Shown: one piece after another, positions 589 through 26,031 of the stretch | Layout of the letters: every line of letters starts with the position of its first letter | Numbering within the stretch: the first letter of the stretch is position 1 | Assembly: GCA_002706765.1 (NCBI GenBank) | Contig: PAJV01000033.1 | Span: forward strand, 1 to 64,000 | Source of the DNA: Gimesia sp. | GTDB lineage: Bacteria; Planctomycetota; Planctomycetia; Planctomycetales; Planctomycetaceae | DNA length: 64,000 nucleotides | Direction: 5' to 3' | The notes under the pieces: model-generated | Database searches by the model: none | Told to the model about the DNA's origin: nothing | The model's input: only the letters and a program-made list of their open reading frames with translations | Translations under genes and position numbers: made by a program

Positions 589-1524
589 TTAACCTCGTTT
601 GATTCCCGCCTGTACGAAAGCGGGGGCTAGGTTCCGGTAGCAGGTTTTTGCAGCGGCAACGGGATCGTAGCCTTTCTGCCGAAAGACCATACTGCTGACT
701 TCACAGCAGATGTCACCCCGATAACCGCCTGCGACGGCCAGTTTCAGCAGTTGAACGTAGTCAATTTCACCACTTTCACCTGGCAACACGAAACTGACTT
801 TCCCGTCTTTCATAATCGTATCTTTGACCTGGATGAAACTGGTGTAAGGCAGCATGGTCTGCAGCGATTCTTTGAGTGAGATATTCCGATGTGTAAAATG
901 GCTGTAGTCAAAATCGAGACGAATCCAGGGGCTGTTGACCTGTTCGACCAGCCAGACTCCCTGCTCGGGGTGATCGACCACACCGCCCCGATGCGGTTTG
1001 ACAGCGATCACCGTTTTCGTACTGGCGGCGACCTGGGCCCACTCACCCAGGTTGTCGCGCATTTCGTTTTTGAGGGTTTCCCATTTGCCACTGCCGGCGA
1101 CTGTTTCGATGAGCGGTGGCTGATCTGGTCGCAGGTCATGCCCGACTTCGGCCGCTTTTTTGAGTCGTTCCAGAACTTTCTGCTGGCTGGCCTGGGAGCC
1201 GGTCAGAATACAGTGCTCCATCAGTGAGGTCAGTTTTAAGTCAGTGTCATTAAGAGTTTTGGAAATCGCTGCGCGACGTTCCGAATTCAGTTTGGCGGGT
1301 GTGGCGTCCCAGTCATCCATCAGAGCCAGTTCCACCGAGTCATAGCCGATGTCGGCGACAATACGAAGTGCCTCTTCGGTTTTCAGGTGAGGCATGCCAT
1401 ACAGGCTGAAGCCGAGAGTGAGTTCCGGCCTGGATGGTTTTGCCTGCAGTCTGCCAAGGCCCAGCAGGCCGACTGTGCCGACACTGGCGGTGGTGAGAAA
1501 CTGGCGTCTGGTGAGCGGCTGCAT
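589..1524 (-). CDS. Secreted TIM-barrel sugar isomerase/epimerase family protein
   Basis: The protein belongs to the xylose-isomerase-like TIM-barrel family (AP endonuclease 2 superfamily), whose members isomerise or epimerise sugars and inositols. The N-terminus carries a twin-arginine-type signal, TRRQFLTTASVGTVGLLGLG, so export in folded form is likely. The barrel begins at LTLGFSLYGMPHLKTEEAL and includes GYDSVELALMD, KPHRGGVVDHPEQ, RLDFDYSHFTHR and FIQVKDT, matching the family pattern of acidic and His metal ligands. I chose the ATG at 1524 over the longer frame to 1590 because AGAGGA lies a few bases upstream and the Tat signal then starts the protein. It follows the sialidase-like gene on the same strand across a gap of about 410 bp. 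The substrate is unknown. Confidence 0.8.
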   Translation of the reverse strand: MQPLTRRQFLTTASVGTVGLLGLGRLQAKPSRPELTLGFSLYGMPHLKTEEALRIVADIGYDSVELALMDDWDATPAKLNSERRAAISKTLNDTDLKLTSLMEHCILTGSQASQQKVLERLKKAAEVGHDLRPDQPPLIETVAGSGKWETLKNEMRDNLGEWAQVAASTKTVIAVKPHRGGVVDHPEQGVWLVEQVNSPWIRLDFDYSHFTHRNISLKESLQTMLPYTSFIQVKDTIMKDGKVSFVLPGESGEIDYVQLLKLAVAGGYRGDICCEVSSMVFRQKGYDPVAAAKTCYRNLAPAFVQAGIKRG

Positions 1525-1935
1525 ATCTGTTTGTCCTCTTTGACCAGGTGTGTGATTCAGTCTAATCAGGGAACTGGCGAACTGATTCACCAGACGTTAA
1601 ATGAGGTTCGAGGGTCAAGTCAACATTGGCGATCGTGTTGTCCATCGTCAGGCGGATTTTCAACGGCCCGCTCGCGAGCCGATCACTGTCATGCGCGACG
1701 CTGTCAGACGTCGTCAGTTATGCATACAGGGCGGTATTCAATGCGTGGTCATTGTTGCCGGAAATCAGATAGATCCCTGGAAACCATTTTAAATAGAGCT
1801 GAACAGGAAGCAAGAATGAAAGACGCGAATAGATTCGATTTGCGTTGGCTGGGATTGAGAGAAAGCACGCATGCGAAGGCAAACAGTGATTCTGAGGGAG
1901 TCGAGTGAAAGTGACTGACCGAGTGGTATCTGCGG
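1525..1935. other. Intergenic gap with possible decayed coding remnant
   Basis: This gap of about 410 bp lies between two leftward genes. Minus-strand translation of roughly 1590-1790 gives protein-like text (for example GNNDHALNTALYA and KIRLTMDNTIANVDLTLEP) interrupted by a stop. It may be remains of a gene. No family was recognised, and a plus-strand frame over the same stretch looks like a shadow. Confidence 0.25.
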
Positions 1936-3000
1936 TTAGTTCAAAAAATCTTCTTCTTTCAAACTCAGTCTTACAGGGCCCTGCATGGTGGTGATCCAGA
2001 GTTCTCCGGGAGTGATTTCCGTAACATAGGGATAAGAGACACGATTTTCGTATTTCTTTCCGGCTGGTGTCAGATCACGGGCGATGACCACCGGTTCGCT
2101 CCAGGTTTTGCATTCATCGTCAGAGAATGCGATAGAGAGTTCCTCACGTCGCCCGAGTTTGCGTTCGGGGTCACGAAAGCGGTTCCAGAGCATTACGATG
2201 CGTCCACTCTCCAGTCGCTGCAGGATGGCCGGCGAACTGCTGGCCTGGATCTGCGAAGGCTGAATGGTGCGCCAGGATGCGCCTTCGTCGGTGGAGAAGG
2301 CTTCCCAGAAACGACCGAATTTTGTGCGGATCAAAGCGTAGATGCGGCCGTCCTTTAACTCGACGATCGTCCCTTCCATCGCGCCGTCATGATCTCCTGA
2401 GCCTCCCAGGTCAATCATGTTGCTGTGGTTCCAGGTGGCTCCTTCATCATCGGAGTAATAAGTCAGCATGACATGGCGGCCCGGATTGGCTATGGTTTGC
2501 GAGACGACTACGATGATGCGACCAGAGTCGGTCTGAATGATACTGCGAACCGCGCCACACCAGCCATGATCCTGCAGGATCTGGGGCGGAAGCCACGATT
2601 TTCCCTGATCGGTACTGCGGACGATATACACGGGCAGATAACAGTCGGATTGCGGACCTCCCTGTTTGTCATCCCAGTGAAATTTCTTTTCTGCCAGATT
2701 CATGAATGCAAGGACAATGGTTCCCTTTTTTGTCTGCAGCAGTGCGCGTTCATTGCTGGTTTGGAATTTTGCCGGTTCCTGATACAGGGGCGTGGGTTCC
2801 CAGGTTTTTCCCTGATCAGTGCTGAGCAAAGACTGTTTTGCATCCGGGGCCAGCAGGCTGCCGTTTTGAAGTTTGATGAAGGGCCCCAGGTGCTGATGCG
2901 GCAGTTTTTTCGTCTGGGGGTGGTTCCATTCTGCCTGTGAGACGATGTTAAAACAGAAGATTGAGGCAATGGTACCGATAATCAGTAAACGCTGCTTCAT
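1936..3000 (-). CDS. Secreted BNR/Asp-box sialidase-like protein
   Basis: This 354-residue protein has a Sec signal peptide (MKQRLLIIGTIASIFCFNIV, cleaved near SQA) followed by a six-bladed sialidase-type propeller. Five Asp boxes of the S-x-D-x-G-x-[TS]-W type are readable: STDQGKTW, STDQGKSW, YSDDEGATW, STDEGASW and FSDDECKTW, the last with Cys in place of Gly. Proteins of this fold include exo-alpha-sialidases and many planctomycete glycan-binding or glycan-cleaving proteins, so sialic acid need not be the substrate. The gene lies about 100 bp downstream of a lipoprotein gene and a DUF1559 gene on the same strand. The same order recurs at 21316-23912. Extracellular or periplasmic action is inferred from the signal. 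Confidence 0.85.
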   Translation of the reverse strand: MKQRLLIIGTIASIFCFNIVSQAEWNHPQTKKLPHQHLGPFIKLQNGSLLAPDAKQSLLSTDQGKTWEPTPLYQEPAKFQTSNERALLQTKKGTIVLAFMNLAEKKFHWDDKQGGPQSDCYLPVYIVRSTDQGKSWLPPQILQDHGWCGAVRSIIQTDSGRIIVVVSQTIANPGRHVMLTYYSDDEGATWNHSNMIDLGGSGDHDGAMEGTIVELKDGRIYALIRTKFGRFWEAFSTDEGASWRTIQPSQIQASSSPAILQRLESGRIVMLWNRFRDPERKLGRREELSIAFSDDECKTWSEPVVIARDLTPAGKKYENRVSYPYVTEITPGELWITTMQGPVRLSLKEEDFLN

Positions 3001-3102: not shown

Positions 3103-3537
3103 TTAATCGAGCTTAAAATTTTTCGTGATCGGTGCACTTCCAGATTCGATGATCAGCTCTTCGAGTTCGGACTTCTCGTTATATTTCTCAGGCAGGATCT
3201 GTTCACGAGGTTTGGGTCGATTTTTTTCAGACTCGGCATCAGAGACAGGGTAGATTTTCGTGTCGGCAGGCTCGCCGATGTAAGCCAGGATTTCAACCTT
3301 GTAGGTACCTATACCAAGAGCAGCTCGATCCGAGGCATTGTATTCTCCATCTTTGACAACGACCGTTCGTCTTGGTGCCTTGCTGTCTTGGGTTGGTACA
3401 AACTTGATTACACCGTCCTTGATCGGTTCTGATTGATAAGTGACTGTGCCTTTGACATTAATTAATTCAGGTCCCGATGAACTCCCACAGCCCAGAAGCA
3501 GCATCGTCAGTCCAGCGCCCATCGTCGTCAATCGCAT
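3103..3537 (-). CDS. Small lipoprotein with carboxypeptidase-regulatory-like fold
   Basis: This is a 144-residue lipoprotein. A short hydrophobic stretch ends in the lipobox LLLGC, followed by a Ser/Gly linker. The body, VKGTVTYQSEPIKDGVIKF to GTYKVEILAYIGEP, matches the beta-sandwich carboxypeptidase-regulatory-like (transthyretin-like) domain common in planctomycete lipoproteins. Such proteins often neighbour DUF1559 genes, as here. An ATG at 3537 is preferred over the GTG at 3543 because GGAG lies 9 bases before the ATG but only 3 before the GTG. It resembles the lipoproteins at 22430 and 44848. The role is unknown; membrane anchoring on the outer face is inferred. Confidence 0.8.
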   Translation of the reverse strand: MRLTTMGAGLTMLLLGCGSSSGPELINVKGTVTYQSEPIKDGVIKFVPTQDSKAPRRTVVVKDGEYNASDRAALGIGTYKVEILAYIGEPADTKIYPVSDAESEKNRPKPREQILPEKYNEKSELEELIIESGSAPITKNFKLD

Positions 3538-3678
3538 TATCACTTACTCCACGTATTATAGAGTTTAATAAAAAAGTTTGCGTTATCGGAGTTCATTCCA
3601 GATAGGTTTCCGACATGAACGTCATGGCGAGCTACCCTCAGTATGGAAGGCAATTCACCATGATGGGGGGAGCTGGAA

Positions 3679-4572
3679 TTAAAATTCACCCACGATTTCT
3701 CCACCGGCACGCGTGGTCAGACTGGTCAGTACTGTCTGGCTCATATTTTCAGAAAGAAACCTCACACTCCCATCTCCCAAAGTGAAATGACAACCCCCTT
3801 CGTGAAAGCTTGCTGGACCGCTAAACGCATCTCCATTATACATGTTATGTGTGAGCGGAAGTATCCCGCCATTGGTTTGCCACGGTGCATTAATACCGTT
3901 GACCGTTCCAATACCATCTCCATAGGCAATCCAGGCTGGTGGAGCATATTTTCCAGCCCCTTGCGAAACGACCTCGCAAAAAGCGAGGGTATTACTGGCG
4001 CCATCAGTGATATCACGAATCTTGACTTTAGAGTTCCAGAAGAAGAGTCCATTCCCGTTCGATACTACGATACTTGACGTTCCTCGTCGCCCGATGCCGG
4101 AATCTGAGATGCCTTCATAATGAGTCCGTGCTGCATCCGGACCTGGATTACCTCCCGTATAATCAACGCCTTCCGTTATCGGGTTGGAAGGGCATAGAAA
4201 AGCGGGCAGAACAGTCTGCCCCAACGCAAAATTCGGGGCGCTGTTAAAGCCGACCGTAAAATTCATTTGATTGTAAAGAGTTGCCTGGTCGATATAGGGT
4301 AAAATCATGGTCTGCGTGCTGTGTCCCAGGTAATCGCTGGCTGTTGTTCTCATCCGTCCGGAGGGAAAGGCGCCATGTACGTCGTGGTAATTGTGTAACG
4401 CCAGTCCGATTTGCTTCATGTTATTCTTACATGTCGAACGTCGTGCTGCTTCGCGCGCCTGTTGTACTGCAGGCAGCAGGAGAGCAATTAAGATTGCAAT
4501 GATGGCAATGACCACCAGTAATTCAATTAATGTAAATCCACGCGATCTTTTGTCTGAGTTGATCTGTAGCAT
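3679..4572 (-). CDS. DUF1559 prepilin-type N-terminal cleavage protein
   Basis: The N-terminus has the type IV prepilin / pseudopilin signature [19 protein letters not shown]: a Gly before the Phe cleavage point, a Glu at position +5 and a long hydrophobic helix. The segment [15 protein letters not shown] then leads into the DUF1559 body. The C-terminus has the family's H-G-G and DGSVRFLSEN signature (HEGGCHFTLGDGSVRFLSEN). At 297 residues the length is usual. Function is not established; assembly into or association with a cell-surface pseudopilus-like structure is inferred. GGAG 8 bases before the ATG supports the start. It is the first gene of a leftward group with the lipoprotein and BNR protein, and gaps of 100-140 bp allow co-transcription. 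Confidence 0.93.
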   Translation of the reverse strand: MLQINSDKRSRGFTLIELLVVIAIIAILIALLLPAVQQAREAARRSTCKNNMKQIGLALHNYHDVHGAFPSGRMRTTASDYLGHSTQTMILPYIDQATLYNQMNFTVGFNSAPNFALGQTVLPAFLCPSNPITEGVDYTGGNPGPDAARTHYEGISDSGIGRRGTSSIVVSNGNGLFFWNSKVKIRDITDGASNTLAFCEVVSQGAGKYAPPAWIAYGDGIGTVNGINAPWQTNGGILPLTHNMYNGDAFSGPASFHEGGCHFTLGDGSVRFLSENMSQTVLTSLTTRAGGEIVGEF

Positions 4573-4796: not shown

Positions 4797-5543
4797 TTAT
4801 TGCTGGGTTGGTGCTTTTAATTGCGGTTTCAGGTGATCGGTCAGATGTTTCGTTGCCTGGTCGGTGTCCCGATCGGCAATCGCATTGGCGATGAGTTCGT
4901 GTTCGCGGAGTCCTTTTGCTGTGGGAGTCTGACCATACAGGTCACCTGCGTGGAAGTAGTCCAGCAGGACACCATGAAACTGTTTCACGAAGTTCCCATG
5001 CGAGGCTGCCAGAATCGTCTGATGAAACAGGCAATCCATCTCTTTATATGCTTTGCTGGTCCCCTGGGGGTCCTGCTTTATTTTTTTCATCACGCGTTTC
5101 ATCTCAGAGACGATGGTCTGCAGACGGATGATTTCTTCTGAAGTGATCAGATCGACGGCCAGTGCGATTGAACCGATTTCGATCACCGCCCGCAGCTGTT
5201 GTAATTCCCGCCAGCCCTGGGGACTGGCAACCTGTGGTACGAGTGCTTTCCTGAGGACATCGGAAAAATTATCGGCTTCTGCCACACACAACCCACGTCC
5301 CTGTCGACCAATAACAACGCCCAGACCCCTGAGAGAGCCAACGGCTTCACGTACCACGGTTCGCGAGACGCCGAACTGGTCTGCCAGTTCTGCTTCGGTT
5401 CCCAGGTGATCGCCGGGAGCCAGACGTTTGCTGCGAATACGTTCGCAAAGGTGGTCTGCGAGTTCGGCACTCAACGTTCGGGATTCCGTTGCTGCAAGAG
5501 AGATATCGTCACGCGATAATTCCATCGTTACACTGCTTTCCAT
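4797..5543 (-). CDS. FCD-domain GntR family transcriptional regulator
   Basis: This 248-residue regulator has an N-terminal winged helix (LADHLCERIRSKRLAPGDHLGTEAELADQFGVSRTVVREAVGSLRGLGVV). After it comes an all-helical FCD ligand-binding domain (about residues 90-235) with ELQQLRAVIEIGSIALA and FHQTILAASHGN. FCD regulators usually sense sugar acids, organic acids or amino-acid derivatives. A perfect dyad at 5670-5686 lies between this gene and the divergent PLP-enzyme operon, so it probably represses itself and that operon. The ligand is unknown. A shorter start at 5525 is possible, and ribosome-binding evidence does not decide between them. Confidence 0.9.
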   Translation of the reverse strand: MESSVTMELSRDDISLAATESRTLSAELADHLCERIRSKRLAPGDHLGTEAELADQFGVSRTVVREAVGSLRGLGVVIGRQGRGLCVAEADNFSDVLRKALVPQVASPQGWRELQQLRAVIEIGSIALAVDLITSEEIIRLQTIVSEMKRVMKKIKQDPQGTSKAYKEMDCLFHQTILAASHGNFVKQFHGVLLDYFHAGDLYGQTPTAKGLREHELIANAIADRDTDQATKHLTDHLKPQLKAPTQQ

Positions 5544-5845
5544 TGAGCGCCGTAGATGACAGTAGAAGTGTAATTCAGAGCGACAGCCTGGCGATCAGTT
5601 TAATATCTGACATGAAATTCCAGAAGAAGAGTTCATTGTCGCTGCCGTCGCGTTATACTATAAATCGAAAGATTGTATGACAATCTGGTTAATTATCATA
5701 TAACTGCTTATTTAGGCGTCAAGACTTTTCATGAAGATTTGCCGAAGATTGCTGATGTTGAGAACGAGATACTGATTTAATAACCGTGAAAGGAATCAGT
5801 AAATCAGAAGGAATCCTGGTTGGCATCTCTGCTAGAGGAAGAGAT
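5544..5845. promoter_or_regulatory. Divergent promoter region of GntR and PLP-enzyme operon
   Basis: This region of about 300 bp separates the leftward GntR gene from the rightward threonine-synthase-like gene. A rightward promoter candidate has ATGACA at 5677-5682 and TATAAC at 5699-5704, with a 16-base spacer. Leftward, TTGTCA (5683-5678) precedes a weaker TAGTAT or TATAGT. Both -35 boxes fall inside the dyad at 5670-5686. Nothing else is recognisable. Confidence 0.5.
5670..5686. promoter_or_regulatory. Candidate GntR operator
   Basis: The sequence AGATTGTATGACAATCT is a perfect inverted repeat with 7-base arms and a 3-base centre. The core TTGTATGACAA fits the TxGTxxxACxA pattern recognised by FCD-type GntR regulators. 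It covers the predicted -35 boxes of both divergent promoters, an arrangement expected for simultaneous repression of both. Confidence 0.65.
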
Positions 5846-6898
5846 ATGGAGTCGGCGAATTTTACGCTGGGGGAGGGGCACACGCCTCTGATCAAGTCGC
5901 GTCGGATTGGTCCTGACGCGGGGCTGGCCCATTTATATTTTAAGCTGGAAACGGTGAATCCCACAGGTTCCTATAAAGATCGTTTCGCAGCGGCTGCCCT
6001 CACCGACATGCTGCATCAGGGGAAGAAGCGGGTCGTCACCTGTTCGAGTGGAAACGCGGGTTCAGCGCTGGCGGCTTATTGTGCAGCAGCAGGAATGACC
6101 TGCCAGGTTGCTGTTTTTATCGGTGCTCCTGAAAACAAACTGAAACAGATGCTGGCTTATGGCGCTACGGTCTGGCGGATTGAGGGCTTTGGTGCCGATC
6201 CGGAAATCTCGGGGAAAGTGTTTAAGTATCTGAAACACCTGGGAGCCGCCCCGGATACTGAGCTGCAGGTCAGCAGTTATCAGTTCAATCCGATTGGCAT
6301 GGCGGGTGTCGAATTCATTGGACGGGAACTGGTCGAGCAGATCTCTGCAGAGCAGGGGGCTGTCGATCATCTGTTCTGCTGTGCCGGAGGGGGAGGGCTG
6401 CTGCTGGCCGTGTACCGCGGATTTCAGACGGCGTTTCATGAAGCGAAAATTGAACGACTGCCGGCATTTCATTGTGTGCAGCCCACAGGAAACAATACGA
6501 TTGCCGGACCGTTACAGGAGGGCTGCGATCGCGCGCAGACCTGTCAGAGTACAACGAAGATTGGTGGACTGCAGGTAGCCAGTGTGCTGGATGGTAATGA
6601 AGTGATTGCCGCCTGTCGGGAAACCGGAGGCAGTGGATATCTGGTGGAAGACGATTTCGTGTATGAGGTCCAGGCGCTGCTCGCGCGGCAGGAGGGCATT
6701 TTCTGTGAACCTGCTGCTGCAGTATCGCTGGCAGGAGTACTACAGGCAGCCGCTGCGGGGAAAATACAGAGTGAAGAGACCGTCGTCTGTGTAATTACAG
6801 GCAGCGGATTTAAAGACCAGGGTTCTATTGATCGCATGTTAGCGGATACGGCCTGTCCCGTTATTTCTTTGTCGGAATTTATCGAACAGACAGCTTAA
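5846..6898 (+). CDS. Threonine synthase-like PLP-dependent enzyme
   Basis: This is a fold-type II PLP enzyme of about 350 residues. The start has LGEGHTPLI, the pattern of threonine synthases. The PLP lysine lies in GSYKDR (K44 from the chosen start). A substrate loop TCSSGNAGSALAAY and a phosphate-binding CAGGGGLLL follow. The ATG at 5846 has AGAGGAA 5 bases upstream and is preferred over a GTG at 5786. The next gene, an aldolase, begins 24 bases after the stop, so the two form an operon facing a GntR regulator. A catabolic PLP lyase or dehydratase acting on an amino-sugar or hydroxy-amino acid would fit the context as well as biosynthetic threonine synthase, so thrC is not assigned. Confidence 0.78.
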   Translation: MESANFTLGEGHTPLIKSRRIGPDAGLAHLYFKLETVNPTGSYKDRFAAAALTDMLHQGKKRVVTCSSGNAGSALAAYCAAAGMTCQVAVFIGAPENKLKQMLAYGATVWRIEGFGADPEISGKVFKYLKHLGAAPDTELQVSSYQFNPIGMAGVEFIGRELVEQISAEQGAVDHLFCCAGGGGLLLAVYRGFQTAFHEAKIERLPAFHCVQPTGNNTIAGPLQEGCDRAQTCQSTTKIGGLQVASVLDGNEVIAACRETGGSGYLVEDDFVYEVQALLARQEGIFCEPAAAVSLAGVLQAAAAGKIQSEETVVCVITGSGFKDQGSIDRMLADTACPVISLSEFIEQTA

Positions 6899-6922
6899 TT
6901 CATCATTTAGAAAGTAAACAAC

Positions 6923-7837
6923 ATGACGCATTCGTTGAAAATGATTACGGCTCTGGGAACACCTCTGACAGCGGAAGAAGATCTGCATCCAGTGGGTCTG
7001 GAAGCGCAGATTCAGGACCAGTTGTCGCATGGAATCAATGGTTTTCTGGTCGCCGGAACGATGGGACTGATGCAGCTGCTGAAAGATACCACTTATCGTG
7101 AACTGGTCGAGCAGAGCGTGCGCTTTAATGCAGGGCATGCCGAACTGCTGGTGGGCGTGGGGGATACCAGCTTCGTACGTACGCGTGAGCGAATTCGCAT
7201 GGTTGAAGACTGTGCCATCGATGGAGTGGTGGTGATCTCTCCCTACTTTCTCAAGTACAGTCAGAGTGATCTGATTGCATATTTTGAGGCGCTCGCCGAC
7301 CTGAGTTCCAGGCCACTGTTTCTCTACGATCTTCCACAGACAACCGGTACAAAACTGGAGGTAGAGACCGTATTGCAGCTGGCGAAACATCCGAATATTC
7401 GGGGTATCAAATGTTCGGATCACTTCACGACAATTCGTCCTGTGATTGATCGTATCGGTGAAGAGTTCCGCGTGATCGTCGCGCAACCCAATCTGATGGA
7501 TGTGTTGCTGCAGGCAGGGGTCCGTGAGCATCTGGATGGAATTTATATAGTCGTGCCGGAATGGATCGAAGCCATGGTGGAAGCAACCCTGGCAAAAGAC
7601 TGGAATCGGCTGGCGCTGGTGCAGCAGGATCTGTCAGCATTGCTGAAAGTGCTGACGACGTTCTCTGCCCCCCTGTTTTCGACAGTCACCACGCTGATGA
7701 ACCAGAGGGGGATCCGCGGGAACTTTGCTCCGCAGCCGATGCGACCTGTGACTGCAGCAGAGCGAGAACAACTGTTCGCTCACCCGCTGATACAAAAGGT
7801 TCTGGCAGGCAAACCGGTCGCTTCGGTCGAAGCATAA
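6923..7837 (+). CDS. DapA/NanA family (dihydrodipicolinate synthase-like) aldolase
   Basis: This 304-residue class I aldolase of the DHDPS/N-acetylneuraminate lyase family has the usual length. The Schiff-base lysine is K163 in IRGIKCSD, and the conserved Tyr is Y135 in LFLYDLP. The N-terminal substrate loop reads GTMGLMQLL instead of the GTTGE of true DapA, so a different keto-acid substrate is likely. Family members cleave or form bonds between pyruvate and aldehydes, including sialic acid and keto-deoxy sugar acids. It is the second gene of the GntR-controlled operon. Given the BNR sialidase-like genes close by, cleavage of a sialic-acid-like or sugar-acid substrate is plausible but unproven. 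Confidence 0.85.
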   Translation: MTHSLKMITALGTPLTAEEDLHPVGLEAQIQDQLSHGINGFLVAGTMGLMQLLKDTTYRELVEQSVRFNAGHAELLVGVGDTSFVRTRERIRMVEDCAIDGVVVISPYFLKYSQSDLIAYFEALADLSSRPLFLYDLPQTTGTKLEVETVLQLAKHPNIRGIKCSDHFTTIRPVIDRIGEEFRVIVAQPNLMDVLLQAGVREHLDGIYIVVPEWIEAMVEATLAKDWNRLALVQQDLSALLKVLTTFSAPLFSTVTTLMNQRGIRGNFAPQPMRPVTAAEREQLFAHPLIQKVLAGKPVASVEA

Positions 7838-7853
7838 GTTGTTTCGAAAGCGA

Positions 7854-9808: not shown

Positions 9809-10783
9809 ATGCGATCAAAGAACGTCTCTCTCAAGCGAGGTTTTACACTCATCGAATTGCTGGTGGTGATTGCCATCATCGCGATTCTGATTGCCCTGCT
9901 CCTTCCCGCTGTGCAACAGGCGCGTGAAGCGGCCCGCCGCAGTACCTGTAAGAATGCACTGAAGCAGGTAGGTCTGGCGTTGCACAATTATCACGATTCA
10001 CATCGCACATTTCCTCCGGGAGCTGTGTGGTATGGGAACGGCTCAGCACCAGCTGACGGGCGGCATGTCAGCTGGGGAACGACCTGGGTTGTGCAGGTTC
10101 TGCCCTTCATGGATCAGTCTCCGCTGTACAATAAATACAATATGAGTTTGCCTGCTCAAAGTGCGAACTCAGACACCACGGACAGCGTACTCCAGGCAAC
10201 GATCCCGATTCTGCGCTGCCCCTCACAATCAGGCATTGATCGATCCTTGCTGACTCAACCTGCTGATGGCAACTTTTCGAAAATTTCCTATGCTGGTTCT
10301 GTAGGCGCTGGTTCAATGCTGAATATTTCAGACTACAACGGCGCCCGACGTGGTATTTTCAGTCCGATCGCCCAGAACGGTGCAAAAATCCGTGATATTA
10401 CAGACGGTACTTCAAATGCCATCATGCTCGGAGAAATCGTCGTCGGCACGAGTACGGCAGACGATAAAGGTGCCTGGGGCTGGTGTACGGGGGCCTTGTT
10501 CAGCGGGAGAAATTCCAATGGGATCCTGACTCCCAATACGACGAACGTCACCGATGGGACTCCCTATGCTTCGAACAATACCTCCGATAATAATTTTAAT
10601 CGACGTAATAATCCGGACATTACAGGTTCGGGAGCCGGCCAGGGATTACGCAGCTCTCACGTTGGTGGTGCGCATGTAACTTTGGCCGATGGTTCGGTGC
10701 GGTTTATCTCCGAAAACGTAGACCAGAATACTTATCTGAATCTCCTGTCGATTGACGATGGAAACGTACTTGGTGAGTATTAA
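9809..10783 (+). CDS. DUF1559 prepilin-type N-terminal cleavage protein
   Basis: This is a 324-residue DUF1559 protein. The N-terminus [13 protein letters not shown] is a prepilin signal with Gly before the Phe cleavage point, and [15 protein letters not shown] follows. The C-terminus carries HVGGAHVTLADGSVRFISEN, the H-G-G / DGSVRF signature. It is followed by a strong terminator-like hairpin and then a small lipoprotein gene. The pair therefore parallels the DUF1559-lipoprotein order elsewhere in the window but without a BNR gene. Surface location is inferred; function is unknown. Confidence 0.93.
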   Translation: MRSKNVSLKRGFTLIELLVVIAIIAILIALLLPAVQQAREAARRSTCKNALKQVGLALHNYHDSHRTFPPGAVWYGNGSAPADGRHVSWGTTWVVQVLPFMDQSPLYNKYNMSLPAQSANSDTTDSVLQATIPILRCPSQSGIDRSLLTQPADGNFSKISYAGSVGAGSMLNISDYNGARRGIFSPIAQNGAKIRDITDGTSNAIMLGEIVVGTSTADDKGAWGWCTGALFSGRNSNGILTPNTTNVTDGTPYASNNTSDNNFNRRNNPDITGSGAGQGLRSSHVGGAHVTLADGSVRFISENVDQNTYLNLLSIDDGNVLGEY

Positions 10784-10853: not shown

Positions 10854-10875
10854 AATTACAAACAGGAATGAAAGA

Positions 10876-16719: not shown

Positions 16720-19700
16720 CTATTTTTGATCGTTATGATAGAGAACATTTCTTCGAAGAATCGGCAGTAACTCTGCAGTGCTGATTTCCGTTGCAATGAT
16801 TCTTCCGTCACGGCCAATCAAAATCTTCGTCGGATAGCTGTTCACATTATAATTGCCGCAAGTTTCACCAGACAACGTATCGACTCCTATCGGAAAGGTC
16901 AGTCCCCGTTTTTTTACGAACGCTTTTACTTCGTCTGTTGAAACGGAATTATGGTGAAGGCCAATAATCACCAATCCTTTTTCCCCGTAAAGCTCATGCG
17001 CCAATTGAAGCCTGGGCAAATCTGCCATACAAGGTCCACACCATGTGGCCCAGAAGTCCAGTAAAACAACTTTGCCGCGGAGTGAATCCAGATTCAGTTC
17101 GTCCGAATTGATCCAGTCACGGCACACGATCTCCGCAGCCGAAGCCGGGGGTTGACTATCATTACGATAGATCTGGGAATCAAGTTTGATTGGTGCCAGG
17201 CGTTGTACTGGTTTTAGAAGTTGAGTCGTATCGGATTTGACGCTGACGAATCCAGGTAATTGGGTATTATCCGTTACGCTGACCGATGCCTGATACTTTT
17301 GATGTCTGCTTAATCCCCAAGTGCGAAATTCACCTGAAGCATCCGTTTTATGGGTCGAGAGCCTTCTGAATTCACTTCTTTTTTTAGCACCATAGACTGA
17401 CCAAAGTGTCACATCTACATCTTCCAGCGGAGTTCCTGCTGCGTCGACGACTGAGCCGATCAACATTGATTCCGGCTCAAGTTGAATGCGTGCTTCAGTC
17501 CCCTCTTCCAGGCTGGAAACCGAGAGGCTCACTCCCGAGCTTAACTTTTCAGTCAAATGGCACGCCATGATATTTGCGACCCATGGCTTATGCATCATTT
17601 GCAATTTGAACCGTCCATTCTCATCGGTTAAGACGGACTGAGGTTGCTGATCGCCCTGCATCACCAATGCATTGACGGCAGGTTGACCATTCGGTAAAAG
17701 CACGACACCGCGAATCAGAGGAAGCCGTTTGGCTTTTAGATCTTCCAGCTCCGTCGTTTCGCCAGGTTTAATGCGGACGTCTTTCCAATACTTGTCTTCC
17801 CCATAGAAACCATTTCCAGTTCCCACAATAATTCCAAATCTGCCGGACGGCGGGGTCATTTCGAAGCGTCCCTCACTGTCGGTGTAACTGCGTAGAATAA
17901 TTGACCGGTTGCTGATGAGTTGCACCTGCACTCCGGAACACGGCATCTGGTTATCTGTGCTCAATACACGTCCGCGGACTGCTCCTCGGCGGTATAGCTT
18001 GAATTTATACTTACTGTGAGCCGTTCCATCATGTACTCGAGCCCATTCAGTTGTTGCCAGCGATGGATGTCGCTCACTGATATCGACGAGATTCGAGATG
18101 ATCGGGAATCGAGTGTGATACTTGCCTTCCGAATCTACGGGAACGTTTCTTACGTTAATACTTTTCGGATAACCTGAGATGTTGACGATGGCTTCTGTCG
18201 CAGGCTTCCCAGTTTCTGCCTCGATTGCCTGAATTTCTACAGGCACTCCTTTTTCCAGAGTGATTGTGTTCTCTTTTGATGTTCTGGCGTTTTCGATTAA
18301 ACCGTTGACATAGTCCCGGTGTTTGACGAGCACGTTACAATCAACATCTGCTGGAATTCCTTCGATCACAAGCCTGCCCTCCGCATCTGATGTGGGACAG
18401 GCAATTTTCATTCGGTCAAGCCACTCCTGCTGAAGCCACCATCGACTTCCGCCACGTACATTCCAGCTGACGTAGGAAAACTCGGCCCCGGCAATGGGTT
18501 TTCCCAGTTCATCCTGAATCTTGAGAACCAGTGATTCGGGACGAGAAACAATGAGCTTCAGATTCCGTTCGATCTGCCCCGGTTGAACAGAGACGTACGT
18601 GCCGGTGTAACTTTTCCCTGCAGCAGCGACTGTTAATGTGTATCTGCCTGCTGAAATATCATCAAAATGGAAACGACCATCTGCAGCTGTCCTCGTTGAC
18701 TGGTAGTCAGTAACGTTATTTATCACATGACTGCAATGCACGATTGCCTCTACGGGATTGCCTTTCTCGTCGAGAATCAAACCACCGATTTCGGCGTGGT
18801 CGGGATTCGATGCTATCACCGCCTGGTCATTCTCTTGCTGCTCACTTTTATTCGTTGTGGGAACATCTGCTACAGCGTCTCCAGACCGTAAGGCAAGACC
18901 TGGAAGTATGGCAGCACACAAGAATATCACGATTCCCCAGGCAAGCTTTGATAACCTGGCCGAACGACGGACCCGTGGATTCAGAACACGTGTGATACGA
19001 GACTGAAGCGGTCGCATCTGCAATGCAGATAATTGTAAAATCCGTGTTCGCACAGAGCACCACTCCAGTGCACGGACTAATGCTGCACAATATTCGTCTT
19101 TCGTTACCAGATTCTCAACCACAATAAGATCATCGCAACATTGTTCCCGGACACGCTGCAGGTTTCGATGCAACATCCATACCACTGGATGAAACCACCA
19201 GAGAGCACGAATGAAACCTTGAATCCAAAGTGCAGCAGGATCCAAACGACGATGATGTGCCAGTTCGTGCGCAAAAACCGCACGCTGCTCAGTTGCCGAC
19301 AGTTGAGTTAGCATTGCTGCGGGAACAATGACGGTCGGCTGAATCACGCCACATGCCATCGGAGTCACGGGGGCCGGACTTAAAAGCAAACGTATGCGGC
19401 GGCGCAATCCCATTGAATGAGTCAGCTTTCTGAATTCTTCCCGCATCGAACCATCTGCTTCCTTACAGCAGGCAATGATTCGCATCAAATGAAAGCTGCT
19501 TTTCGCCATCCACAGCAGAAACGCCAGGGTTACGATGCCGGAGCCGATCATTAACCAGGCAATGGAACTGATACTGACCGTCAGTTCTTTCTGGATTTTT
19601 AATGATGAGGAAATTATCGAAACCGGGGAATCAGCTGTTTCGGTAGTCGATTTCACTTCTTTCTTCGGGTTATTCGGAACAGTAACAGGCAGATCACTTC

Positions 19701-20028
19701 TGTCACGTGTTACTGATTCGAAAGACGGCACTACCAGATTCTCACCTTCTGGTGGGAGTTCGGATACCATACGCGATGTCTTTTCAACCGAAGCACCGTT
19801 TGATATTTCCCACTGACTGAAAATTCCACCCGGCATTGCAAAAAACGGTGGCACAACAAACTTGATCAGAGCCAGCATCAGCAACGCATACCGAATATTT
19901 GCTGAAATACGATGCTTCCAGAAAACAACGACAAAGATAAGCAATGCGACGACAGTGGACTGCCAGGCCATGTGCTTCACAATAAAGAGCCACGCATCGG
20001 CCACGGAATTAATTGTATCAACGGACAT
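16720..20028 (-). CDS. BlaR1-like M56 peptidase with C-terminal TlpA-type thioredoxin domain
   Basis: This 1102-residue membrane protein has N-terminal helices (about residues 14-62 and 150-176), a M56 zinc-peptidase domain with HELAHH (H254, E255, H258) and a further helix near 362-380. A long extracytoplasmic region holds several carboxypeptidase-regulatory-like repeats (for example GGLILDEKGNPVEAIV, RGRVLSTDNQMPCSGV, RGVVLLPNGQPAVNAL). The last 130 residues form a TlpA/ResA-like thioredoxin fold with WATWCGPC (C997 and C1000). By analogy with BlaR1/BlaI, the peptidase should cleave or inactivate the BlaI repressor encoded just upstream. The start overlaps the BlaI stop as TAATG with GGAGGA upstream, so translation is coupled. 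A thioredoxin module on such a sensor is unusual and suggests thiol or redox sensing or repair. Confidence 0.85.
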   Translation of the reverse strand: MSVDTINSVADAWLFIVKHMAWQSTVVALLIFVVVFWKHRISANIRYALLMLALIKFVVPPFFAMPGGIFSQWEISNGASVEKTSRMVSELPPEGENLVVPSFESVTRDRSDLPVTVPNNPKKEVKSTTETADSPVSIISSSLKIQKELTVSISSIAWLMIGSGIVTLAFLLWMAKSSFHLMRIIACCKEADGSMREEFRKLTHSMGLRRRIRLLLSPAPVTPMACGVIQPTVIVPAAMLTQLSATEQRAVFAHELAHHRRLDPAALWIQGFIRALWWFHPVVWMLHRNLQRVREQCCDDLIVVENLVTKDEYCAALVRALEWCSVRTRILQLSALQMRPLQSRITRVLNPRVRRSARLSKLAWGIVIFLCAAILPGLALRSGDAVADVPTTNKSEQQENDQAVIASNPDHAEIGGLILDEKGNPVEAIVHCSHVINNVTDYQSTRTAADGRFHFDDISAGRYTLTVAAAGKSYTGTYVSVQPGQIERNLKLIVSRPESLVLKIQDELGKPIAGAEFSYVSWNVRGGSRWWLQQEWLDRMKIACPTSDAEGRLVIEGIPADVDCNVLVKHRDYVNGLIENARTSKENTITLEKGVPVEIQAIEAETGKPATEAIVNISGYPKSINVRNVPVDSEGKYHTRFPIISNLVDISERHPSLATTEWARVHDGTAHSKYKFKLYRRGAVRGRVLSTDNQMPCSGVQVQLISNRSIILRSYTDSEGRFEMTPPSGRFGIIVGTGNGFYGEDKYWKDVRIKPGETTELEDLKAKRLPLIRGVVLLPNGQPAVNALVMQGDQQPQSVLTDENGRFKLQMMHKPWVANIMACHLTEKLSSGVSLSVSSLEEGTEARIQLEPESMLIGSVVDAAGTPLEDVDVTLWSVYGAKKRSEFRRLSTHKTDASGEFRTWGLSRHQKYQASVSVTDNTQLPGFVSVKSDTTQLLKPVQRLAPIKLDSQIYRNDSQPPASAAEIVCRDWINSDELNLDSLRGKVVLLDFWATWCGPCMADLPRLQLAHELYGEKGLVIIGLHHNSVSTDEVKAFVKKRGLTFPIGVDTLSGETCGNYNVNSYPTKILIGRDGRIIATEISTAELLPILRRNVLYHNDQK

Positions 20029-20453
20029 TATTTGTCCTCCAGATTCTGATTCTGTTCAAGACGTTCGATGAGAGCCTTGAGTTCCTCAATTTCTTCCGGA
20101 CTGGTGGGTTGACTTTCCAGCAGGGATGCCACAATCGCGACTGAGTTTCCACCAAATATTCGTTGTCTGAGCTTCTGCAGAATTCGACGATGAGTGGATT
20201 TTGGACCTCGTGTCGCGCGGTAAGCAAATGATTTGCCTTGTCCTGACTTCTCTCGCTTCACAAGGTCCTTTTCAGACAATCGATTGAGCAGCGTAAGCAC
20301 AGAACCATGAGCCATCGGACGATATGACTCTAATTGATTTCGGATTTCGCCAGCCGTCAAAGCACCTGCATTCCAGAGGCAAGCCAGTACTTCAAGCTCT
20401 GCCTCAGGTAGATCTTGAGAAACGGGGTGACCACTCCTGGAATTCTTTGCCAT
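20028..20453 (-). CDS. BlaI/MecI/CopY family transcriptional repressor
   Basis: This 141-residue repressor has the winged-helix domain typical of BlaI (LPEAELEVLACLWNAGALTAGEIRNQLESYRPMAHGSVLTLLNRL) and a C-terminal dimerisation and cleavage region (GGNSVAIVASLLESQPTSPEEIEELKALIERL). It is expected to bind as a dimer to the two dyads at 20498 and 20525, repressing itself and the coupled M56-TlpA gene until the membrane peptidase is activated. AGGAG 7 bases upstream supports the ATG. A second operon of the same design starts at 51798. The inducing signal is unknown. Confidence 0.92.
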   Translation of the reverse strand: MAKNSRSGHPVSQDLPEAELEVLACLWNAGALTAGEIRNQLESYRPMAHGSVLTLLNRLSEKDLVKREKSGQGKSFAYRATRGPKSTHRRILQKLRQRIFGGNSVAIVASLLESQPTSPEEIEELKALIERLEQNQNLEDK

Positions 20454-22429: not shown

Positions 22430-22846
22430 TTATTGAAGATTAAAATCATGCTGGACCGGGTCACTGTCCGGCGGAATGGTGAGTGGTTCAATCGTGGATT
22501 TTGTGTTGAACTGTTCCGGCAGATATTGTTTTCGGCTGGTGGAACTGCCGGCGGGTTGATCACCGGGCAGTCCCGTCTCTCCCTGGTAGGCGCTGATCTC
22601 CACCTGGTAGGTGCCCGGTTTGACTGCCGAGCGGTCGGCGAACAGATATGTTCCGGCGTTGATCTGGGTCGTTCTCGCCGGAGCGGTGTTTCCTTTCTCA
22701 GGCACGAGACGTATCACGCCTTCCTGGATCGGATCGCCCTGGTAGGTGACCGTGCCTTTCACGGCAGTAAGTTCCATTTCGTCAGTAGCCTGGCCGCAAC
22801 CGGTCAGGAGTAACAGGCAGCCGCAGAGGAATTTGAGTTTGCTCAT
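22430..22846 (-). CDS. Small lipoprotein with carboxypeptidase-regulatory-like fold
   Basis: This 138-residue lipoprotein has the lipobox LLTGC after a short hydrophobic signal. The body VKGTVTYQGDPIQEGVIRLVP to PGTYQVEISAYQGETG is a transthyretin-like beta-sandwich and aligns block by block with the lipoprotein at 3103 (VKGTVTYQSEPIKDGVIKF). It sits between a DUF1559 gene and a BNR gene in the same order as that paralogue. Surface anchoring is inferred and the molecular role is unknown. Confidence 0.82.
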   Translation of the reverse strand: MSKLKFLCGCLLLLTGCGQATDEMELTAVKGTVTYQGDPIQEGVIRLVPEKGNTAPARTTQINAGTYLFADRSAVKPGTYQVEISAYQGETGLPGDQPAGSSTSRKQYLPEQFNTKSTIEPLTIPPDSDPVQHDFNLQ

Positions 22847-23003: not shown

Positions 23004-23912
23004 CTAGAACTCACCAATGACTTCGCTGCCGGCGCGTGTCGTCAGATCCTGCAGAGTTCCCAGGTCGATATTTTCTGACAGGAACCGGACTGCCCCGTCT
23101 GCCAGCAGGAAATGACAACCACCGGTGTGGTAGCTGCCCGGCCCGGTGAAGTCATCTCCATTCCAGCTCCAGCCGGTGAGCAGAGGGAAATTAGCGTTGA
23201 TGCCGCTGCGAACGCCAATGCCGCCGCCCCCATAGGCACCCCAGGCAAACAGTTCGTGTGAACCGGGCTTGTCGCCGACCGTTTCTGCAAAAGCCAGTGT
23301 GGTACTGGACCCATCCAGGATATCCCGAAAGCGGGTTTTTGAATTGCGATAAAAGACCCCATCCTTGTTAAAGCCGACGGCGTCCTGGCCATCACGGGCC
23401 GGGTTTCCGTCGCGGCCGCTATGTGCTACCGGCTGATAGTGACTGCCCCAGGAGTCGTCAGGTCCGCCGGCCCCGGTCCAGTTGAGTCCCTCGTCCTGTG
23501 GGTTGCTGGGGCAGAGAAACACGTTGATTTTCTGTTGCGTGACGGGGGCGTTCGAAGAGTGATTGAATGCATTCAGAAAATTGAACTGATTATAGATATT
23601 TGTCTGGTCAAGAAACGGGAGCAACATGGTGGAACACATCTGCGAGCCAAAGTTCTGCGGGGCAGAGGTGGAGTTATCGGTAAAACTGCGACCAAAGGGA
23701 AACATGCTGTGCGTCTCGTGATAGTTGTGCAAAGCCAGGCCAATCTGTTTGAGATTGTTCTTACAGGTACTGCGGCGGGCTGATTCCCGGGCCTGTTGAA
23801 CGGCAGGCAGCAGCAGTGCAATCAGAATCGCGATGATGGCGATCACGACCAGTAACTCGATTAATGTAAAAGCTCTTTGTGCTCTGTTCGGCTGCGAATT
23901 GTGTGACAGCAT
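23004..23912 (-). CDS. DUF1559 prepilin-type N-terminal cleavage protein
   Basis: This is a 302-residue DUF1559 protein with the prepilin-like N-terminus [16 protein letters not shown] and the C-terminal signature [20 protein letters not shown]. The residue before the Phe is Ala, where prepilin peptidase sites and the other three DUF1559 proteins here have Gly, which might slow or prevent cleavage. GGGGGA lies upstream of the ATG. It is first in a leftward group with the lipoprotein and BNR genes. A dyad at 23980, nearly identical to one upstream of the nearby GntR gene, suggests control by that regulator. Confidence 0.92.
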
Positions 23913-23978: not shown

Positions 23979-23998
23979 GATATATTATGATATATCAT
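23979..23998. promoter_or_regulatory. Candidate GntR operator upstream of DUF1559 gene
   Basis: The stretch includes ATATATTATGATATATC (23980-23996), which matches 26081-26097 at 15 of 17 positions, and the perfect palindrome ATGATATATCAT (23987-23998). It lies about 70 bp upstream of the DUF1559 start. The most economical reader is the GntR protein encoded at 25312-26031. Confidence 0.55.
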
Positions 23999-24161: not shown

Positions 24162-25322
24162 TCAGCAGTTGACAGCAGATTGGCTGGTCTGAACAGAATG
24201 CTCGGGGTCTACCTGAAAACGGAACCAGCGAATGACGCTGACGCATTGTTCGTAACACCAGAAGGTGACAAACAATTCGCCATCGGGCAGTCGGGTGATA
24301 TGGGGCGCACCAAATTTGAGTGCGGCGAAATTATCTGACATGTTTTCGCCTGTGGACGTAATGCCTTCCAGCATGTTGTGTCCCCAGAGGGGCTGCTGAT
24401 CTCCGTTGATCCAGGTGCCTGTGTCATCTAAACGAGACAGGCAGGCCCAGAGCCCCGGTTGATCCATACGACGGTAAATATTCAGCAGGCTGCCATCTTC
24501 GAGCAGGCAGGGGGTTAAGGTCTGGCCTGCGATCTGAGTGGAAGCAGGTTCCGACCAGGAGTTTCCTCCGTCGTCGCTGACCGCATAATGATTGGGGAGA
24601 TCTGTCTGCGTCGCTTCGTCGTAACACCAGGCCACTGCCAGCAGGCGTCCGTCAGGATATTCCACCACCTTGGATTCCCAGAAGATCAGGTTGTTTTCCT
24701 CACTATGCATGATGTCGAGGTATTCATCCCAGGAGTGGCCCTGATCGGTGGAAACCAGCGCCAGCATGCGATTTCCGTTGGGTAAAAAGCCGGCCCAGTC
24801 GCGCCACGTGGAAGTCGGCCAGATCCAGCGACCATCAGTGAGTTGCGTGATCGGGCTGCACATTTCGAATTCGGGACCCTCCAGGGGGGGAGAGACAACT
24901 TCTGGTTCTGACCACGTCCGGCCCAGGTCGAGGGAGCGGATCAGTAACAGTTCTGAGGGGACCATGCCCAGAGTCTGGGGATTGCATAAGCCTTCGTCAG
25001 GGAAGTCGGTCCGATCAAATCGCACCAGATTCGCAATCAGCTCGCCTGATTCCGTCGCGGTGAGCCGCCCGAATGTAGAAGTCTGTCGCCCGGTGACACT
25101 GGTATTGATCGGCCCCTGGTATTCCCAGGTCAGCCCCTGGTCAAACGATCGGGACAGGTGCAGTTTGAGGTCGACTGCTTCAAAGGCTTCCCCCAGCATA
25201 TACATGGCAAGCAGAGAGCCATCGGGCAGAGCGGCAACCGAGGGGAAGTAAGCGTGCACGCTTTTCACATGCGGTTTCGCATTTTTGAACAGGATTCCTG
25301 TTTCCAGCTGTTTAAGTTGCAT
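24162..25322 (-). CDS. Cytoplasmic BNR/Asp-box sialidase-family protein
   Basis: This 386-residue protein has no signal peptide, unlike the other BNR proteins in the window. Asp-box-like motifs include RSFDQGLTW, RSLDLGRTW, STDQGHSW and VSDDGGNSW, giving a sialidase-type propeller. The C-terminal half contains PDGELFVTFWCYEQCVSVIRWF. Its start overlaps the end of the GntR gene by 11 bases, so the two are co-transcribed and probably translationally coupled. It could act on intracellular glycan fragments or be a sensor-like partner. Enzyme activity cannot be assigned from sequence. Confidence 0.83.
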   Translation of the reverse strand: MQLKQLETGILFKNAKPHVKSVHAYFPSVAALPDGSLLAMYMLGEAFEAVDLKLHLSRSFDQGLTWEYQGPINTSVTGRQTSTFGRLTATESGELIANLVRFDRTDFPDEGLCNPQTLGMVPSELLLIRSLDLGRTWSEPEVVSPPLEGPEFEMCSPITQLTDGRWIWPTSTWRDWAGFLPNGNRMLALVSTDQGHSWDEYLDIMHSEENNLIFWESKVVEYPDGRLLAVAWCYDEATQTDLPNHYAVSDDGGNSWSEPASTQIAGQTLTPCLLEDGSLLNIYRRMDQPGLWACLSRLDDTGTWINGDQQPLWGHNMLEGITSTGENMSDNFAALKFGAPHITRLPDGELFVTFWCYEQCVSVIRWFRFQVDPEHSVQTSQSAVNC

Positions 25323-26031
25323 TACGGCCTCGTTCCTGTTTTCTCATAAAAGCCAGGACGTCGCGACGGCCTGCCTGGATCTGTTCGCTCATGATCTGGC
25401 GCGCCAGATCTGCATCCCGGTTACGAAAGGCAGCCAGGATCTGTTCTTTGCCCGCACAGGTCTCTTCTGCACTTTGCGGAGTGATGATTTTATGTTTCAG
25501 CTGACGCAGGGCATAAAAGACATCGGTAATGGCCCGTTGCTCCTGGATGACTTTTTTTAGCAGGCGATTCCGCGAGGCTTCGATCAGGATTTCATGAAAC
25601 TCGGTTTCGCAGTCAACCCAGCGATTGAACTGGGCCGGCGTGGTATGTTTCGCGTTCCGTTCGTTGAGTAAAACAGTGATTTCGCGCATCTCGTCAATGA
25701 GGAACTGCAGATCGTCCAGCTGCTGTGGAGTAATATACAGGGCCGCTTCCCCGGCGGCGAAGCTTTCGAGCAGATCACGCAACACGTACAGTTCATCCAG
25801 GTCTTCACGTCCAATCTCGCGGACGAAGGCACCGGAGCCCTGGATGTGTTCCACGAAACCTTCTGATGCCAGGCGGCAGATCGCTTCACGTACGGGAATC
25901 GCACTTACACCCAGTTCGGCAGCCAGTTTGCGGTTCACCAGGCGGGCGCCCGGCGAGAGCACATTCTGCTCCATCTGCTGTTTGATATACTGATACGAAT
26001 ATTCGGTGAGATTTTTTGAAGTGTCTTCCAT
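25312..26031 (-). CDS. FCD-domain GntR family transcriptional regulator
   Basis: This 239-residue regulator has an N-terminal winged helix (YIKQQMEQNVLSPGARLVNRKLAAELGVSAIPVREAICRLASEGFV). A FCD domain (LRDLLESFAAGEAALY, FHEILIEASRNRLLKKVI) completes it. The predicted promoter read leftward has TTGACG (26108-26103) and TATATT (26085-26080) with a 17-base spacer, and the dyad at 26081-26096 covers the -10 box and most of the spacer. Autorepression is therefore likely, and control of the DUF1559 group through the similar site at 23980 is a reasonable inference. It overlaps the following BNR gene by 11 bases. Confidence 0.9.
   Translation of the reverse strand: MEDTSKNLTEYSYQYIKQQMEQNVLSPGARLVNRKLAAELGVSAIPVREAICRLASEGFVEHIQGSGAFVREIGREDLDELYVLRDLLESFAAGEAALYITPQQLDDLQFLIDEMREITVLLNERNAKHTTPAQFNRWVDCETEFHEILIEASRNRLLKKVIQEQRAITDVFYALRQLKHKIITPQSAEETCAGKEQILAAFRNRDADLARQIMSEQIQAGRRDVLAFMRKQERGRNAT

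Follow-up and report, generated by a model that had tools for sequence, protein, structure and literature searches.

In Bacteroidetes, polysaccharide utilization loci of the SusCD type bring together a regulator, a surface binder, and an enzyme for one substrate. For planctomycetes, dextran has been described on pili-like fibers (PMC5394234), and pilin-like proteins have been proposed to act as polysaccharide "fishing rods" (PMC12078418). A separate line of work concerns the DUF1559 proteins, which PMC10632474 describes as the largest paralogue group of Planctopirus limnophila, with 68 members of unknown function, two of them essential. Genes of this kind are reported to be often flanked by genes for proteins with type I or type II signal peptides, and proteins of DUF1559-type make-up in Tuwongella immobilis are reported from detergent-soluble fractions (PMC8567305). 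Here, we analyze a stretch of 64,000 nucleotides from Gimesia sp. (contig PAJV01000033.1; hereafter, the window) in which genes for a DUF1559 protein, a small transthyretin (TTR)-like lipoprotein, and a secreted BNR propeller follow one another twice, each time with an FCD-type GntR regulator gene upstream (modules 1 and 2). Our literature searches found no work joining Planctomycetes with pseudopilin, polysaccharide, and lipoprotein, and none joining them with BNR, sialidase, and GntR.

A repeated gene order with an FCD regulator

An earlier note, made from the sequence of the window alone, had claimed this repeated order, and Pfam matches, lipoboxes, and coordinates confirm it. Six of the eight named genes have a Pfam match above the cut-off (two DUF1559, two BNR, and two FCD-GntR genes), so the family assignments of the note hold for these six, whereas neither lipoprotein matches a Pfam model above its cut-off. 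Both DUF1559 proteins give near full-length matches to PF07596 (190.3 and 199.6 bits against a cut-off of 23.3) and carry the N_methyl prepilin motif (PF07963); an NCBIfam scan of the module 1 protein also found an H-X9-DG tail (TIGR04294, 35.0 bits against a cut-off of 19). The regulators join a GntR helix-turn-helix to an FCD domain and are thus members of the FCD subfamily. The two lipoproteins, each with a lipobox, align over most of their length with 44% identity, as the note had observed. The TTR/CarboxypepD_reg Pfam model does not match that of module 1 and gives 20.3 bits against a cut-off of 32.3 for that of module 2. A structure model of the latter is beta-rich, with a mean predicted local distance difference test (pLDDT) score of 78, and a Foldseek search with it returned a single match at an E value of 1e-3 or better (8.8e-4, an adhesin), which is a weak similarity; DUF3823, CnaB, and TTR-type domains were among the weak matches, and the query-normalized template modeling (TM) score was below 0.5 in the rows shown. 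Because no Pfam match exceeds the cut-off and the structural similarity is weak, "TTR-like" is a weak label. In module 2, the order is as the note gave it, except that a further BNR gene, BNR3 (24162-25322), lies between GntR2 and the DUF1559 gene.

A third module, with DUF1559, TTR, and BNR genes and a divergent FCD gene upstream, is located on contig 76 of the same genome (G000; 7.9 Mb in 78 contigs). This genome contains 135 DUF1559 and 17 FCD matches as well as 23 BNR_2 rows, some of which are pieces of one gene. When 111 of the 135 DUF1559 matches are used, 8 of the 17 FCD genes have a DUF1559 gene no more than 3 kb away (1.4 expected); leaving out the window's contig gives 6 of 14 (1.1 expected). 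In a second genome of the genus, G038, where 118 of 131 DUF1559 matches were used, 7 of 20 FCD genes lie within 1 kb of one (1.0 expected), a number that none of 2,000 shifts reached. For BNR genes of the window's genome, 7 of 20 are within 3 kb of DUF1559 (1.6 expected), falling to 3 of 16 without the window's contig (1.3 expected, P = 0.13); since the excess disappears with that contig, proximity of BNR to DUF1559 is not enriched on its own. The FCD-DUF1559 enrichment in two genomes of the genus and the distribution of a palindrome described below reject chance as the only cause.

DUF1559 and the lipoprotein as a unit

Genes were called in 100 stretches of the window's genome (1.39 Mb with overlaps counted), which cover the surroundings of 111 of the 135 DUF1559 matches and of other FCD and BNR genes. 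They yielded 113 distinct DUF1559 genes, some of them fragments. A same-strand gene comes next in 94 of these, and for 57 of the 113 it encodes a TTR-like lipoprotein of one family. The lipobox pattern is found in 36 of 71 matches to this family, a shortfall that comes partly from doubtful starts. Beyond the 57 pairs lies an opposite-strand gene in 18 cases, another DUF1559 gene in 6, a distant same-strand gene in 5, and a same-strand gene less than 400 bp away in 28. The trees of 54 of these pairs correlate (r = 0.40, with none of 2,000 permutations as high; Spearman coefficient of 0.26), and in 37 of the 54 pairs the closest relative by DUF1559 also ranks among the three closest by TTR. TTR matches occur in 57 of the 59 genomes sampled from the class, and 28 of the 30 best-match TTR loci have a DUF1559 gene directly upstream on the same strand, the other two lacking it (22 of 30 under a stricter first rule). 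The 21 loci for which a genome is shown represent 21 genomes, six of them from the window's genus, and such best matches favor strong members of the family. Judged by gene order and tree comparison, DUF1559 and the TTR-like lipoprotein are a widespread pair with correlated trees. Other types of DUF1559 partner may exist, since another DUF1559 gene of the window is followed by a short lipoprotein unlike the TTR family (9809-11256).

Probable replacement of the pair within the genus

Modules 1 and 2 are syntenic in G038, G076, and G121; module 1 is present in all six genomes of the genus examined, and module 3 is complete in G000, G038, and G121. In G117, an abhydrolase gene separates the TTR and BNR genes of module 1, and our DUF1559 search found only a module 1-type protein at an E value of 1e-90 or better. 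The module 2 region of G106 keeps GntR3, BNR4, and BNR3, and no GntR2, DUF1559, TTR, or BNR2 was detected there. A search with the module 2 DUF1559 for related loci gave four. One of them, in a metagenome-assembled genome of an uncultured Gimesia sp., encodes a BNR2 relative (80% protein identity) and a module 2-like lipoprotein, and its DNA also matches the end of the module 2 DUF1559 gene.

Between the window and G038, the outer genes of module 1 are 81% (GntR1) and 80% (BNR1) identical, and the inner ones 49% (DUF1559) and 35% (TTR); the identity of the DUF1559 protein to that of G076 is also 49%. The window's module 1 DUF1559 groups with proteins from three genomes of two other genera (64-69% identity, support of 87-91), apart from those of G038, G076, G117, and G121, which group together. 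Forcing the window's pair to join the module 1 pairs of the genus was rejected by the approximately unbiased (AU) test, with P values of 3e-88 for DUF1559 and 0.006 for TTR. A replacement in the window's own lineage is likely, since the common type is present in G121, the genome closest to it in the tree of module 2 DUF1559 proteins. Taken from these trees, the likely history of module 1 is that its pair was replaced by a non-orthologous one while regulator and propeller stayed in place. The module 1 slot is filled by another pair from the same wider clade.

G038 and G076 are sisters, with 94% nucleotide identity over 12 kb. Between them, the ratio of nonsynonymous to synonymous substitution rates (dN/dS) lies between 0.02 and 0.07 for the module 1 and 2 DUF1559 and TTR genes as well as for GntR1-3 and BNR1-4; the AP2 and PALP genes have a value of 0.17. 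Within module 2, the TTR-like lipoprotein is less conserved than the DUF1559 protein (61% versus 81%).

Relationship between the modules

The earlier note had described a duplicated module, which raises the question of whether both modules were copied from one ancestral four-gene block. The DUF1559 and TTR proteins of modules 1 and 2 are indeed the nearest relatives of each other in their genome, the former with 52% identity. In contrast, the GntR and BNR proteins of the two modules share 26% and 29% identity and are not nearest paralogues. The closest own-genome paralogue of GntR2 is the FCD protein of module 3 (56%), and GntR1 belongs elsewhere; the BNR proteins of modules 1 to 3 fall in three different groups, BNR2 being nearer to others than to BNR1; and the module 1 pair differs from that of the rest of the genus. 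A segmental duplication of the four-gene module is contradicted for GntR and BNR, and we regard the copying of a whole block as highly improbable.

The DUF1559 proteins of modules 1, 2, and 3 and of a further locus, C16, form one clade of four among 108 in the genome. The 54-pair tree gives this clade a local support of 0.97; in the TTR tree, the four are not set apart. At C16, there is a gene of the GntR family, together with a weak match to glycosyl-hydrolase-like 10 that stays below the cut-off. A BNR gene comes next in three of the four clade members and in none of 50 pairs outside (P = 1.6e-4), and an FCD gene is nearby in three of four and five of 50, respectively (P = 0.008). These tests are not independent of the starting observation, as two of the three loci are modules 1 and 2 themselves.

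Predicted operators

Near-identical palindromes precede GntR2 and the module 2 DUF1559 gene. They were found in the window and then at the same places in G038, G076, and G121. For their consensus, GATATATCAYRATATATY, the genomes G000, G038, G076, and G121 each have two exact matches and no more, both in module 2; G106 and G117, where module 2 was not found, have none. Other sites number one or two per genome, each with two mismatches, and a reversed control gives zero to two matches per genome at up to two mismatches. With up to two mismatches allowed, the window has four strand-matches at the two places, against an expectation of 0.01. From this distribution, the module 2 palindrome is the strongest evidence that one regulator may serve the pair and the propeller, and the two predicted operators could be bound by GntR2 itself.

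For module 1, a candidate site lies between GntR1 and the divergent PALP gene (0.06 matches expected at up to one mismatch) and is tentatively assigned to GntR1. In module 3, a palindrome is found in the FCD-side spacer of G000, G038, and G121 and is still present before BNR in G076; its sequence, TGTTATAACA, has one match with one mismatch in the window against 0.73 expected.

The propellers are not assigned as sialidases

The earlier note had spoken of sialidase-type propellers. GH33 sialidases have an N-terminal RIP motif that includes the catalytic arginine. Among the four BNR proteins of the window, no NCBIfam neuraminidase model scores above its cut-off; the best score with the curated neuraminidase model is 39.7 bits, for BNR2, against a cut-off of 900. 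RIP is absent from BNR1, BNR3, and BNR4, and BNR2 has a single RIP, which starts away from the usual place, at residue 276 of its 365. BNR1 and BNR2 are Asp-box propellers, each with a BNR_2 match above the cut-off and five Asp boxes. The BNR/Asp-box sialidases PDB 8gn6, 8feb, and 8axi are their best PDB sequence matches (E values of about 1e-12 for BNR1 and 1e-18 for BNR2) and share the same Asp-box propeller; unlike these enzymes, BNR1 and BNR2 lack a neuraminidase model match above the cut-off and an RIP motif at the usual place. Neither the models nor the position of the motif supports a sialidase assignment.

Occurrence outside the genus

Fourteen relatives of BNR1 in other genera (37-51% identity) have no adjoining DUF1559 or TTR gene on the contigs available, some of which are short (one of 3.9 kb). 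One of them has a DUF1559 gene about 5 kb away, and the BNR1 relative of G050 is surrounded by DUF1501, sulfatase, ceramidase-like, and PSCyt2/PSD1 genes. A weaker BNR relative from another genus (G066) shows the order DUF1559, TTR, BNR, and DUF1559 lies downstream of BNR genes in G047 and G077; such neighbors therefore do occur outside the genus. Flanks of about 1.5 kb, or shorter where a contig ends, contain DUF1559 at 2 of 30 FCD loci; one of the two belongs to the same genus, which leaves 1 of 29 outside it. The full module with GntR was seen only in the window's genus. As to the co-occurrence that the earlier note proposed as a check, the order is kept inside the genus, and linkage to GntR and BNR is found mainly there. 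That the four families make up a general system is not supported, given that BNR1 relatives and FCD loci outside the genus are mostly without DUF1559, and these neighborhoods also reject a GntR-DUF1559 system common to the whole family.

At locus L258 of another genus (G011), an FCD-GntR gene is followed directly by a BNR gene, with no DUF1559 gene in the DNA examined. FCD-GntR genes number 17 to 20 in each of G000, G038, and G076 against 0 to 9 in the remaining 78 genomes sampled from the family.

Features of the window and neighboring genes

Table 1. Genes and predicted regulatory sites of the two modules and their surroundings.
Feature	Position in window	Strand	Basis and remarks
GntR1, FCD-type GntR regulator of module 1	4797..5543	-	Pfam GntR and FCD above cut-offs; syntenic in 6 genus genomes examined
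Module 1 DUF1559/SBP_bac_10 protein, prepilin-type N-terminus	3679..4572	-	Pfam; not orthologous to counterpart in 4 other genus genomes (tree, AU test)
Module 1 small TTR-like lipoprotein, lipobox LLGC	3103..3543	-	Orthology to genus module 1 rejected
BNR1, secreted BNR/Asp-box propeller of module 1	1936..3000	-	Pfam BNR_2; signal-peptide-like N-terminus; five Asp boxes
Xylose-isomerase-like TIM barrel protein, downstream of BNR1	589..1590	-	Pfam; synteny
GntR2, FCD-type GntR regulator of module 2	25312..26031	-	Pfam
BNR3, BNR protein without evident signal peptide, overlaps GntR2 gene	24162..25322	-	Pfam, sequence
Module 2 DUF1559/SBP_bac_10 protein, prepilin-type N-terminus	23004..23912	-	Pfam
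Module 2 small TTR-like lipoprotein, lipobox LLTGC	22430..22846	-	
BNR2, secreted BNR/Asp-box propeller of module 2	21316..~22416	-	Pfam; start from gene call; five Asp boxes
BNR4, BNR-like, signal-peptide-like N-terminus, no canonical Asp box	26239..27306	-	Below Pfam cut-off
GntR3, third FCD-type GntR regulator	27341..28075	-	
Predicted operator copy 1, GATATATCACGATATATT	26080..26097	-	About 50 bp before GntR2; overlaps promoter-like hexamer
Predicted operator copy 2, GATATATCATAATATATC	23979..23996	-	About 67 bp before module 2 DUF1559; overlaps promoter-like hexamer
Candidate GntR1 site, ATTGT-CAT-ACAAT (ATTGTNNNACAAT-like)	5672..5684	-	Between divergent PALP and GntR1; conserved block, with changes, in six genomes

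The longer frame of BNR2, up to 22563, would overlap the lipoprotein gene, and the start is probably that of the gene call near 22416. Module 2 is followed by a BNR-like gene and a third FCD-GntR gene (26239-28075). GntR3 and BNR4, which are adjacent in five genomes including the window's own, form a second GntR-propeller pair (26239-28132) with a TTGACA-16-TATAAT promoter-like site at 28132-28105.

Genes for a threonine-synthase/dehydratase-like pyridoxal phosphate enzyme, a DHDPS-superfamily protein, and a ceramidase-like protein (5786-9266) adjoin module 1 in the six genus genomes examined. The PALP and DHDPS genes are divergent from GntR1, and the three genes are possibly in the same pathway as module 1. 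In G038, the TIM barrel gene downstream of BNR1 is followed by PSCyt/PSD1 and DUF1501 genes. Between the modules, the window contains a DDE transposase gene (15138-16361) and an unassigned frame (14020-14886), together spanning 14020-16361, and a sensor of the BlaR1/M56 type that carries TTR-like repeats and a thioredoxin-like end as fused parts and is adjoined by a BlaI-type repressor (16720-20453). In G038 and G076, the distance between the BNR1 and BNR2 genes is about 3.3 kb shorter than in the window.

Discussion

We tentatively read the modules as substrate-responsive surface units, in which a GntR-switched propeller is combined with an exchangeable pilin-lipoprotein cassette that would set specificity. 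An FCD-GntR repressor would sense a small acid, and its response would lead to joint expression of the secreted BNR propeller, the DUF1559 pseudopilin, and the TTR-like lipoprotein. DUF1559 would be processed like a pilin and built into a surface fiber or pseudopilus, which the lipoprotein may cap or anchor; the pair could then hold a polymer for the propeller enzyme and hand it over, the identity of the cassette determining the substrate or surface. We infer surface assembly, polymer capture, and hand-over to the enzyme. The earlier note's proposal of a glycan capture system with a pseudopilin-like scaffold and sugar-acid regulators survives in this form in part, favored by the prepilin N-terminus, the palindrome shared by GntR2 and the pair in four genomes, and the order kept in the genus.

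Several observations weigh against these surface units. The case for DUF1559 as a pilus or pseudopilus subunit comes from the N-terminal motif and from a long N-terminal helix in a DUF1559 model that is too poor to use (pLDDT of 41). At most 10 of the 17 FCD genes in the window's genome are within 6 kb of any DUF1559 gene, and only 3 of the 28 close third genes after pairs are BNR genes (modules 1 and 2 and contig 76). In module 1, we saw no conserved site in the interval from GntR1 to DUF1559, and promoter-like hexamers of the kind found at the operators are not more frequent in the region than in shuffled sequence. Pairs of the clade in three genomes from two other genera lie beside DUF1501 genes or a POT transporter with no adjoining GntR or BNR gene, although the upstream flank in one (G039) is only 0.8 kb and in another (G030) a BNR gene lies at a distance of about 8 kb. 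In module 3 of G076, the FCD and BNR frames are intact and adjoining, separated by 68 bp against about 1.55 kb with DUF1559 and TTR in G038; as G038 is the sister of G076 and both G038 and the window's genome carry the pair, its loss in G076 is the simpler reading. The module 1 DUF1559 gene of G106 is split by a stop codon. The pair is therefore dispensable, since G076 keeps the regulator and propeller of module 3 without it and the DUF1559 frame of G106 is interrupted.

The case of G076, with its intact FCD and BNR frames, also fits a plainer account. With 135 DUF1559 matches in 7.9 Mb, DUF1559-TTR pairs might land by GntR-BNR pairs and be transcribed there without any functional tie to the enzyme, an idea to which the very varied third genes and the scarce linkage outside the genus lend weight. 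Yet chance landing sits poorly with a palindrome conserved at the module 2 pair's promoter in four genomes, with FCD and DUF1559 genes lying side by side more often than by chance in two genus genomes, with the restriction of all three BNR-linked pairs to one small clade, and with the refilling of the module 1 slot by a pair of the same wider clade; we consider this account rather unlikely.

Turnover of the pairs may have another cause if they are exchangeable antigens or adhesins whose variation evades phages or grazers or alters attachment, with the regulators setting only the timing. Large paralogy, in-place replacement, absence, and the lower conservation of the module 2 lipoprotein relative to its DUF1559 partner would all be expected, but the low dN/dS between the sister genomes and the carbohydrate-type genes beside several pairs of the clade, including the weak glycosyl-hydrolase-like match, argue otherwise and make this distinctly unlikely. 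A solute-binding role of DUF1559 in transport or osmoprotection is suggested by its Pfam name, SBP_bac_10, and by the response of some DUF1559 genes of Rhodopirellula baltica to salt, cold, and heat, as reported in PMC2754498. We find it very unlikely in view of the prepilin N-terminus, the H-X9-DG tail of the module 1 protein, the lack of an ABC transporter among those neighboring proteins that were scanned (some of the neighbors), and the detergent-soluble fractionation of the T. immobilis proteins reported in PMC8567305.

A bolder extension of the surface-unit reading, which we think unlikely, is that DUF1559-TTR pairs, dozens per genome, serve as interchangeable tips or subunits of an uptake fiber, each specific for a substrate and tied to its own regulators and enzymes, with swaps retuning what the cell holds. 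If this were true, the pairs would provide the genes for the proposed planctomycetal "fishing rod." Short of that, the pilin-lipoprotein cassette is perhaps such a rod and a candidate part of polymer uptake, and the finding bears on how planctomycetes take up polymers. Tying DUF1559 to one lipoprotein family, and one pair to a palindrome shared with a regulator's promoter, turns an open question into a small experiment.

Compared with the SusCD loci of Bacteroidetes, the modules have a pilin-type protein, and no SusC or SusD turned up among the scanned proteins, no search having been aimed at them. With the DUF1559/SBP_bac_10 paralogue family of Planctomycetes in PMC8567305 and PMC10632474, they share the N_methyl and SBP_bac_10 domains and the large paralogy; in the passages on the family, we saw no TTR-like type II partner family whose tree follows that of DUF1559, no dedicated GntR sites, and no in-place replacement. 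The "fishing rod" hypothesis of PMC5394234 and PMC12078418 rests on the same idea, surface fibers of dedicated pilin-like proteins that bind whole polysaccharides. Whereas these accounts, in the parts that set out the hypothesis, name no gene, the modules described here put forward candidate pilins together with a linked regulator.

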